Below the pieces are notes generated by a model. It was not told where the DNA came from and searched no databases. It worked only from the letters and a program-made list of their open reading frames with translations. Below are positions 30,612 through 59,515 of a stretch of DNA of 64,000 bases, piece after piece. Numbering within the stretch: the first letter of the stretch is position 1; each line of letters opens with the position of its first letter. Made by a program: the position numbers and the translations under genes. The stretch comes from an uncultured Pirellula sp. (GTDB taxonomy: Bacteria > Planctomycetota > Planctomycetia > Pirellulales > Pirellulaceae): assembly GCA_903892355.1 (NCBI GenBank), contig CAITIE010000032.1, forward strand, positions 1 to 64,000, written 5' to 3'.

Positions 30612-30667
30612 GGTGGGATCCAAGTGGTGGGATCCAATTGGTGGGATCCAATTGGTGGGATCCAATC
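30612..30667. repeat. 14-bp tandem repeat, four units, in the hisA leader
   Basis: Four units of GGTGGGATCCAATT (30612-30625, 30626-30639, 30640-30653, 30654-30667), with variation only in the last bases, followed by a decayed fifth unit starting GGTGGAAT. Each unit contains the palindrome GGATCC. The array ends about 40 bases before the hisA start codon, so it probably lies in the promoter or untranslated leader. Confidence 0.9.
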
Positions 30668-30706
30668 GGTGGAATACGACGAACAAACGCAAAGGAAACG
30701 ATCCAA

Positions 30707-50124: not shown

Positions 50125-50296
50125 TCCCTATCGGCCTAGACTCCGTATAGGTCTAGTCTTCATATCGGTCTAGTCTTCATATCGGCGGTTGCACCTCTTC
50201 GGTCGCCCCGTGTGGGCGCGGGGTATCGCGTACGCTACCATCACAGTTCGATCTCTCTCCCATCGATCTTATCTACTTCTCGAGAAAGCCGGCACC

Positions 50297-57759: not shown

Positions 57760-58007
57760 CCATTAATAGCTGCGTAAACGCACTTTCTGAGGTTCATCGT
57801 GGCACGACGCTCCGCCGTCGTCGAACAGTTGCCTATCGATAACTTTTGGGTTCTAGAAGGAACAGTATGGCTGTGGAGTCGAAATGTTCAATGTTGGTGA
57901 ATATGTAGTTTTTCTAGGCATTAAAATTGGATATCGATCTGTCCCGTTTTCCCAAGGCTTGCAAGTAGCGACTCAATTTTTTTAAAACTTTTATTGAGGG
58001 GTAGTCC

Positions 58008-58430
58008 GTGGCTAACAGACTGAGCAAAGCGATCCTAGGAAGCTTATGCGGGGGCATTGGAGGTTTCCTAATCGGCATAGTCATCAGTGGGTACTTGTCG
58101 ATGCTCTATAGCATCGAGCGGGCTCCAAATGGCCCGGAGGGCACACCCTTTGCTCCAATACTCGGACTGCTGGATTTTTTTTTCGGAATCGTTTTTGGAT
58201 TATTTTTCGCCGCAATCGGTGGGGTTGTCGGAGCCGTGGTCGGCGCCGGTTTGGCTGCGATGTCGCGCGACGAGCCGAGTGTCGAGAACGAGAGGCATGT
58301 TCAGGATTCGTTGCAGCGTGAACCGAGTGCACCGAGCATCTCATCCGATTCCAATGAATCCCTTAAAAGTGAACTGACTCGACTGAAGGAAAGAATTGCT
58401 GAGATTGAAGGTCGTGAGAGAGACCATTGA
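58008..58430 (+). CDS. Glycine-rich membrane protein with C-terminal coiled coil, unknown
   Basis: 140 residues from a GTG with GAGGGG 8 nt upstream. Two hydrophobic helices rich in Gly (LGSLCGGIGGFLIGIVISGYL and IGGVVGAVVGAGLAA) carry GxxxG-type zippers; a third hydrophobic stretch (LGLLDFFFGIVFGLFF) lies between. The C-terminal 35 residues (SLKSELTRLKERIAEIEGRE) form a short coiled coil. It lies directly upstream of the nested repeat array. I do not recognise a family; membrane insertion is clear, function is not. Confidence 0.6.
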   Translation: MANRLSKAILGSLCGGIGGFLIGIVISGYLSMLYSIERAPNGPEGTPFAPILGLLDFFFGIVFGLFFAAIGGVVGAVVGAGLAAMSRDEPSVENERHVQDSLQREPSAPSISSDSNESLKSELTRLKERIAEIEGRERDH

Positions 58431-59005
58431 GGAAGCCATTACAGTTTCCGATCAAAGGAACGGCTGGCGACAAGGAAACAAGTTAGCGGAGGTTTAGCCG
58501 TGCCAGGAAGCTTGTTAGGCGACACGCGTGGCTCGGAATGGCGTTCGCAAAGCGCGGATCTGAGTTCGCGAAGCGAACACATCGGAGCCCTCAGCGTGAG
58601 CGCCGGGTGGTGGGACATTGGAGTCGCGAGTGCGGATGTTTTGCTCACAACCAGTTTCGGAGGATGGCCGGTTCAAGCGTCCAGTTGCCACTTGCTCACA
58701 CGCGCGGCTCGGAATGGCGTTCGCAAAGCGCAGATTAGCGTTCGCGGAGCGCGGATTTGAGTTCGCAAAGCATGGATTTGCGTTCGCGGAGCGCGGATTT
58801 GCGTTCGCAAAGCGAACACATCGGAGCCCTCAGCGTGAGCGCCGGGTGGAGGGACATTGGAGTCGCTAGTGCGGATGTTTTGCTCACAACCAGTATCGGA
58901 GGATGGCGGGTTCGAGCGTCCAGTTGCCACTTGCTCACACGCGTGGCTCGGAATGGCGTTCGCAAAGCGCGGATTTGCGTTCGCAAAGCGAACACATCAG
59001 AGCCC
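58431..59005. other. Repeat-filled intergenic region
   Basis: About 575 bases between the glycine-rich protein gene and the M41-like gene. From 58525 on it is almost entirely the nested repeat array. The array has open frames on both strands that encode heptad-like peptides (FAERGFA, LRTQIRA), but these follow from the 21-bp unit length and I do not regard them as genes. Confidence 0.6.
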
Positions 59006-59009
59006 TCAG
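58525..59009. repeat. Nested repeat array: two full and one partial long unit with internal 21-bp units
   Basis: Long units start at 58525 (176 bp), 58701 (239 bp) and 58940 (about 70 bp, partial). Each begins CGCG(T/C)GGCTCGGAATGG, then runs of a 21-bp subunit with core TTCGCnnAGCG, then GAACACATCGGAGCCCTCAG, then a unique stretch ending CAGTTGCCACTTGCTCACA. Unit 2 is longer by exactly 63 bp because it has four 21-bp copies before the closing one, against one in units 1 and 3. GTTCGC-AAA-GCGAAC is a perfect small hairpin. The last unit runs into the 3' end of the M41-like gene. Confidence 0.92.
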
Positions 59010-59515
59010 CGTTGACTCTTCGCCACGTTCGCTTCGTCGAAGAGATGGCGGGCGGCTCGGCCGCTGATCGTCTGGTTTTTGAGCAACTCAGCCGCGATCT
59101 TCTCGATGGCTGACCAGAGTGCGCGATCGCTCAAGTGGTTCTCCGTTTTGCTCAACAATCTTCGTTCTAGCCGCTCGACTTGGCGTTCTCCTACAGCCCT
59201 TGATTGCAAGAAACGACGAACAAACCGAAGATCTTGAGCCGCCCCCGCAGCGCAGTACTGACCTGTAATTTGTGATTCTGCGACCATCCCCGCTAGCAGG
59301 ATCATGACCTCATCCTCAAGCCAATCCTTTGAGCCTTTGCCTCGCCCTTTTTTGATATGGCACGCCCCTAATCGTTCAACACCTATCGCGGACTTGCCAG
59401 GCGAAATTGTGACTTTATCGATGGGACGGCCGAGGAACAACGCCATAACCGCGTGGCCAGCTTCGTGGTACGCCGTGGCCTTGAGCGCAAAAGCGTATGC
59501 GTCCTCTTCATTCAT
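59006..59515 (-). CDS. Stand-alone M41-like (FtsH peptidase-type) zinc metalloprotease
   Basis: 169 residues with HEAGH at residues 17-21 (AYHEAGHAVMALFLGRPID), the zinc site of the FtsH peptidase domain, and Asp95 in GAAQDLRFV, the likely third ligand. DEVMILLAGMVAE is the matching helix of the FtsH peptidase. Unlike FtsH there is no AAA ATPase domain and no membrane helix, so it lacks an obvious unfoldase. Whether it is active alone or works with another ATPase is unknown. The stop codon and the last Arg codon lie in sequence shared with the upstream repeat array. Confidence 0.82.
   Translation of the reverse strand: MNEEDAYAFALKATAYHEAGHAVMALFLGRPIDKVTISPGKSAIGVERLGACHIKKGRGKGSKDWLEDEVMILLAGMVAESQITGQYCAAGAAQDLRFVRRFLQSRAVGERQVERLERRLLSKTENHLSDRALWSAIEKIAAELLKNQTISGRAARHLFDEANVAKSQR

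Follow-up and report, generated by a model that had tools for sequence, protein, structure and literature searches.

A nested, length-variable array of non-coding repeats in an uncultured Pirellula sp. and its dispersed repeat family

The array and its neighbours

The window analysed here, the first 64,000 nucleotides of contig CAITIE010000032.1 of an uncultured Pirellula sp. (assembly GCA_903892355.1, 6.18 Mb in 158 contigs; the genome is called G000 and the contig C32 below), carries near its far end a nested array of non-coding repeats, with a small open reading frame (ORF) aimed at it from one side and the 3' end of a gene at the other. The array belongs to a real, dispersed and length-variable repeat family, a fairly ordinary kind of genome repeat. 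Tandem Repeats Finder (TRF) found it independently, both as a 21-bp period (5.0 copies, 58710-58814) and as a 239-bp period with 93% matches (58541-58984), and direct repeats in the array are spaced by 176 and 239 bp. These results bear out the original prediction, made from the sequence alone, of a nested array whose long units vary in length through 21-bp palindromic subunits, including its arithmetic (239 - 176 = 63 = 3 x 21). The period view can be refined: the basic repeat unit is a 131-bp body followed by a 24-bp linker (155 bp), to which extra 21-bp subunits are added. The window holds two complete bodies. Its linkers, in order 24+21, 24+84 and 24+21 bp long, consist of 24 bp plus one, four and one subunits and carry TTCGCnnnGCGAA palindromes. 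The features are as follows.

58522-58537, + strand: right-end remnant ACACGCGTGGCTCGGA, start of the array (from sequence reading and the direct-repeat copy)
58538-58582, + strand: linker 1, 45 bp, 24 bp plus one 21-bp palindromic subunit (TTCGCGAAGCGAA at 58565-58577)
58583-58713, + strand: unit body 1, 131 bp, with left end CGGAGCCCTCAGCGTGAGCGCCGGGT, a variable middle and a right end finishing in CGCGCGGCTCGGA
58714-58821, + strand: linker 2, 108 bp, 24 bp plus four 21-bp subunits (the 21-bp TRF array)
58822-58952, + strand: unit body 2, 131 bp, top row of the 27-unit alignment A1
58953-58997, + strand: linker 3, 45 bp, 24 bp plus one 21-bp subunit
58998-59012, + strand: left-end remnant CAGAGCCCTCAGCGT, which closes the array and contains the stop codon of the 59006-59515 gene
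59006-59515, - strand: adjoining gene with a Peptidase_M41 match, its 3' end at the array
58008-58430, + strand: small adjoining ORF aimed at the array, with a 96% identical protein in the related genome G005

The TTCGCNNNGCGAA palindrome has three copies in the window, all of them within the array (0.19 expected; 0/100 shuffles reached three), and the 24-base left end, at up to three mismatches, has two copies against 0.00 expected. A coding origin was rejected as unlikely: the periods of 155, 176 and 239 are all 2 modulo 3, so that successive units fall in different reading frames, in keeping with the earlier claim that no gene explains the array. The ORFs listed over it look like run-through. 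The small ORF at 58008-58430 gave no Pfam match at E 0.001.

The dispersed family and its relatives

A BLAST search with the 176-bp unit, the check that had been proposed with the original prediction, gave 64 matches in G000. Scanning the fetched loci resolved 37 clusters, some of which are the two ends of one array split between contigs, and all 35 strict left ends in the genome lie at these loci. Full units recovered with a fuzzy pattern had bodies of 130-133 bp in 27/32 cases; the remaining five measured 150-180 bp owing to additional mid-body sequence, and isolated right halves of ~70 bp are also present. The body ends are strongly conserved, imperfect inverted repeats that pair in the consensus, and ~30 bp of the body middle differ between loci; the predicted combination of conserved unit ends and non-conserved flanks held across loci, with the middle variable too. 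The TTCGCnnnGCGAA palindrome usually sits 7-8 nt ahead of the left-end GAGCC. Among 30 distinct linkers in G000, 14 were 24 or 25 nt long, six were 44 or 45, three were 49 and the rest ranged from 26 to 108, the differences being extra 21- or 25-bp subunits. Outer ends of the listed units and their flanks read mostly ATCGGAGCC (ATCCGAGCC on the opposite strand), and neither a GTAG nor a CGTC tetranucleotide foot, the hallmark of repetitive extragenic palindromic (REP) sequences, was found in them. A plasmid collection gave no match to the repeat. Two local variants were seen: left ends interleaved with a second repeat type, in ~200-bp units bearing ACGCGAAGACGCGAAG runs (L011, L012 and L061, on G000 C11 and G005 C389), and a right end internally grown into 15-bp tandem copies of GCAAGTGGCGACTGG (L236, G000 C98:199900-200100).

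The elements favour gene 3' ends. With a simple ORF chooser that dropped ORFs lying mostly inside a cluster, one of the 37 clusters fell inside a retained ORF (L234, at a contig edge) and four others overlapped an ORF edge (L012, L022, L034, L235). After 12 clusters had been left out of the orientation scoring (11 at contig edges, one inside the edge ORF), the 25 scorable clusters comprised 13 convergent, 10 tandem and 2 divergent, compared to 15, 57 and 20 among 92 background gaps in the same stretches. The convergent excess was significant (Fisher p = 0.0009); for divergent gaps p = 0.15, the divergent label of L012 being unreliable as ORFs overlap the array there. Several repeat ends lie only 3-16 bp from a stop codon.

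Strict left ends numbered 35 in G000, 19 in G005 and 7 in G008, with 0 in the other 37 of the 40 genomes searched, 24 of the 39 besides G000 belonging to the same genus. G002 also gave right-end matches, as did G024, there on a contig near-identical to a G000 locus. By eye, that G024 stretch (L053, C311:250-1000) is near-identical to G000 C121 (L025); its bin has 6% contamination, and the contig is probably misbinned. A covariance model run with strict filters over 196 genomes of the order, possibly not including G008, gave strong scores for G000 and G005 (17 each, as many as were scored) and a single weak hit each in G084 and G117. Of 18 repeat loci in G005, 16 have a match to a G000 repeat locus that extends past the repeat itself and one more matches L233; for the last, the left flank adjoins a degenerate, oppositely oriented copy in G000 C9.

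At orthologous loci, copy number changes between genomes. With unit counts taken as lower bounds, these being draft, fragmented assemblies, the window array has two full units compared to one in G005, whose remaining interval is a different chimeric repeat. C48/C88 has at least two units in G000, one in G005 and two in G008; C64/C108 has at least three in G000 and one in G005; C52 has two in G000 and three in G008; and C121 has a right half only in G000 and two full units in G005. Several single-unit loci, including L017/L080 and L034/L085, showed no difference, and L064 carries a single left end and a single right end, oriented oppositely to L021. The unit is thus neither confined to the window nor constant in number, differing at orthologous loci in two relatives. 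At the L021 locus G007 is without the element, both flanks aligning, and at three other loci no element was found in the G007 stretches read, one flank aligning at each. In G008 the element at the L033 locus is shortened, and no repeat accompanies the ortholog of the gene that follows the window array across the 1.7 kb read. The suggestion of "mobile or amplified" repeats stood in part: amplification or loss in place was seen between genomes, and recent movement was not, given that G000 and G005 have most sites in common and that no target duplication could be cleanly recognised. We infer dispersal of the family from its many loci, its inverted ends and the G007 site without the element.

Repeats of this kind do break assembly. 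In G000, 10 of 13 checked contig ends (of 316) lay within 100 bp of a repeat end, and five split array pairs were bridged by contigs of G005 (four) or G008 (one). An assembly artefact as the source of the repeats is nevertheless scarcely credible: for the family it is contradicted by the same loci and flanking genes in the separate assemblies G005 and G008, and unit sequences vary between loci. The practical message is a warning that draft planctomycete assemblies break at such arrays.

At one locus, the change appears to involve genes. In G000 C119 (L022:4213-8640), two repeat clusters bracket a stretch of ~4.65 kb that encodes an ECF sigma factor and a kinase/FGE-sulfatase protein, and this module joins both flanks at a right end. 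G005 C58 has the same filled arrangement, with identity per 250-bp window at 98-100% across the module and at 86-95% across the left neighbour; on G005 C277 and G008 C113 the locus holds a single repeat and the module is missing. The G005 bin mixes strains, since its two contigs differ by 4% in their shared neighbour, and contigs in it may be misbinned. The locus looks like a gene module inserted at a repeat, for which recombination between repeats would be the simplest account in this one case. That the repeats serve generally as docking points for gene exchange is doubtful; if true and general, it would mean an integrase-free cassette system run by short-repeat recombination and descended from a phylum-wide Y1-transposase repeat family. 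An integron-like attC site was also considered, and the right end appears to lack the RYYYAAC/GTTRRRY motifs of such sites.

A shared core and Y1 transposases

A scan of 84,980 named genomes for the left-end core AGCCCTNAGCGTNAGCGNCGGG gave at least 101 stretches. Among the 80 stretches listed, 79 came from records named as Planctomycetota or as groups presumptively belonging to that phylum, and one came from a Ruminococcus bin. Within 160 bp downstream, 30 of the 104 core occurrences in the listed loci had an inverted partner at up to four mismatches, compared to 0/104 at 1000 bp, symmetric core pairs being counted from both sides; the partner held at up to two mismatches in 23/30, and the other partners resemble another hairpin. 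Exact cores are patchy (4/392 phylum genomes), and a looser core, AGCCCNNAGCGTNAGCGNCGG, was found in 6/148 phylum genomes with 0 for a reversed-pattern control. A hairpin inside the 22-base core was considered but is not supported, as bases at its two free positions were complementary or G-T in only 34/100 distinct sites. None of five 14-letter versions of the core was found in the literature text searched, and the titles and abstract openings searched in the REP, RAYT, MITE and planctomycete literature contained no description of this repeat family. The 21-22-base core is a marker for a Planctomycetota repeat superfamily, and could be tied to specific Y1 transposases.

One of the six genomes with the looser core, G284 from another family, has 291 copies of AGCCCNNAGCGTNAGCGNCGG. 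At 9/12 loci read the cores form simple inverted pairs 109-121 bp apart, a proportion that is no rate, seven of the loci having been picked because a pair was already visible. Cores at up to two mismatches were present at 3/11 Y1_Tnp loci of G284, and at one of the three a complete pair precedes the transposase gene and another follows it. A Y1 gene flanked by its own repeats is the arrangement described for RAYT and TIRYT genes (PMC2817692, PMC3116915, PMC3733652; excerpts of these papers underlie this and the comparisons below). Two more Y1 genes in G284 (L258 and L264) have a variant core, AGCCCGAAGCTTTAGCGAGGG, which suggests that repeat variants differ from one transposase to another. Excerpts on Rhodopirellula baltica report abundant tyrosine transposase genes with flanking repeats (PMC3733652) and count 29 satellites (PMC6749651).

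G000 itself has a single Y1_Tnp match (24.6 bits, cut-off 23). Its gene is ringed by another palindrome, ACGACGCTCCGCCGTCGT, which at up to one mismatch has 25 copies in the genome, 14 of them in C90:41042-49129, and the G005 counterpart has the same palindrome as its neighbour. We rejected this resident RAYT-like gene as the present mobiliser of the window's family, as its own, different palindrome stands on both sides despite an adjacent 2-mismatch core. One exact copy of ACGACGCTCCGCCGTCGT also lies in the window, at 57804-57821. Y1_Tnp matches were found in 27/27 genomes of the genus, so the presence of Y1_Tnp does not track the repeat. A cognate RAYT flanked by the repeat was not found in G000 and was seen only for the related core in G284; likewise, terminal inverted repeats (TIRs) common to gene-free and Y1-flanking copies were seen for the G284 core and not for the window's family at the G000, G005 and G008 loci read.

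Origin and present behaviour of the repeats

We favour, as the probable explanation, that the array arose where a dispersed, non-coding, non-autonomous element of a BIME/REPIN-like kind expanded locally, the element being orphaned from its transposase and changing in place. Ancestral elements would have been spread by a Y1 transposase (IS200/IS605-type, RAYT/TIRYT) acting on the inverted ends. In G000 that transposase appears to be no longer paired with the elements, which are probably orphaned and, because of this, would now be mostly fixed in place. Present change would occur by tandem duplication, deletion and homologous recombination, and may be tolerated mainly just after stop codons and between convergent genes.

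In anatomy and behaviour the family is like BIMEs, REPINs and TIR repeats, and it lacks the tag and the cognate transposase in G000 on which formal REP membership depends. As in BIMEs, and especially BIME-2 (PMC2817692), it is extragenic, with alternating inverted end motifs and linkers, and forms tandem arrays that differ in length between related genomes; unlike BIMEs, it has no GTAG foot, its bodies are 131 bp long, its linkers carry their own expandable 21/25-bp palindromes, and a cognate RAYT was not found in G000. With REPINs (PMC3116915) it shares conserved inverted ends, multiple copies, the lack of a gene and a spacer better conserved in length than in sequence. A REPIN doublet would be expected to fold as a hairpin through its spacer; here the predicted folds of the body are no better than those of shuffled sequence, and only those of the linker junction are. 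The TIR repeats and TIRtrons of TIRYT genes (PMC3733652) resemble the situation in G284, where the core forms TIRs flanking a Y1 gene and has hundreds of further copies; the sole Y1 gene found in G000 differs from them in its flanking palindrome.

Folding located the hairpin potential more closely (single-stranded DNA, 60 shuffles each, G000 loci only). Right-end/linker/left-end junctions had z <= -2 in 9/28 cases, with a median of -1.51, and differed from the bodies (Mann-Whitney p = 1.5e-5). Hairpin or cruciform formation is predicted to centre on the linker and would arise when units stand in tandem, since junctions, unlike bodies, often outfold shuffles.

Several results weigh against the orphaned-element explanation. 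The bodies had z <= -2 in 0/39 cases (median -0.27 against dinucleotide shuffles), and at z -0.51 the junction within the window did not stand out. With only junctions predicted to outfold shuffles, which half is the "hairpin unit" is ambiguous. Base-pair covariation was absent from the body (term +0.12 kcal/mol, 1/21 pairs changed on both sides). The link to Y1 transposases is drawn from a genome of another family, through the 21-base core common to both, and is to that extent tentative: the right end of the window's family was absent at all 11 Y1 loci of G000 and the genus and at four further Y1 loci read, and the only core at any of these loci was an isolated 2-mismatch match beside the G000 gene and, likewise, beside its G005 counterpart. 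A search for a clean empty site, whether flanked by a target duplication or not, found none, G007 intergenic DNA being too diverged, and some of the unit-number differences could be assembly effects.

The near-constant body length and strongly conserved blocks would also suit a body that encodes a family of structured small RNAs. We rejected this reading, which is very improbable, on three counts: no Rfam model matched the window at its gathering threshold, the covariation term and paired changes in the body were as given above, and the bodies, folded with DNA parameters, did no better than shuffles.

A functional 3'-end signal (a terminator, an mRNA-stabilising element or a nucleoid- or gyrase-binding site), selected behind stop codons and amplified as more copies work better, fits the 3'-end and convergent bias and the junction hairpins. 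It also fits the palindrome, whose sixth pair was Watson-Crick in 32/55 distinct copies compared to a shuffle mean of 20.3 (0/2000 shuffles reached 32), although the copies were chosen by likeness to the inner five pairs and the shuffle control leaves their kinship in; outer pairs 8 and 9 showed no such Watson-Crick excess in the same 55 copies. We hold such a signal to be improbable as the explanation, as the same bias would be expected if insertions elsewhere were harmful and the strict left end is limited to G000, G005 and G008 among the 40 genomes.

Miniature inverted-repeat transposable elements (MITEs) are short elements with inverted ends, no gene and many copies, and in these respects the window's family is like them. 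A classical MITE of a DDE transposon, its inverted ends being cut-and-paste sites of an insertion sequence and its arrays arising later by slippage, would account for the fixed length of ~131 bp, the conserved imperfect inverted ends around a variable interior and the spread through intergenic DNA. However, no parent insertion sequence or autonomous copy was found, the strict left ends of G000 all lying at fetched repeat loci, in an analysis in which DDE transposase genes were not searched for. No target-site duplication was recognised, the G007 site being too diverged for base-by-base alignment, and the related core in G284 flanks Y1 genes. We therefore regard a MITE origin as unlikely, if less so than a 3'-end signal.

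As a probably orphaned element, the family illustrates in a planctomycete what may become of such repeats after they part from their transposase, with mostly fixed sites, nested length change (in 21-bp subunits and 155-bp units) and one apparent gain of a gene module. Elsewhere in the window, TRF found two other short tandem arrays, one of 14 bp x 4.4 at 30612-30672 and one of 17 bp x 3.4 at 50129-50185.
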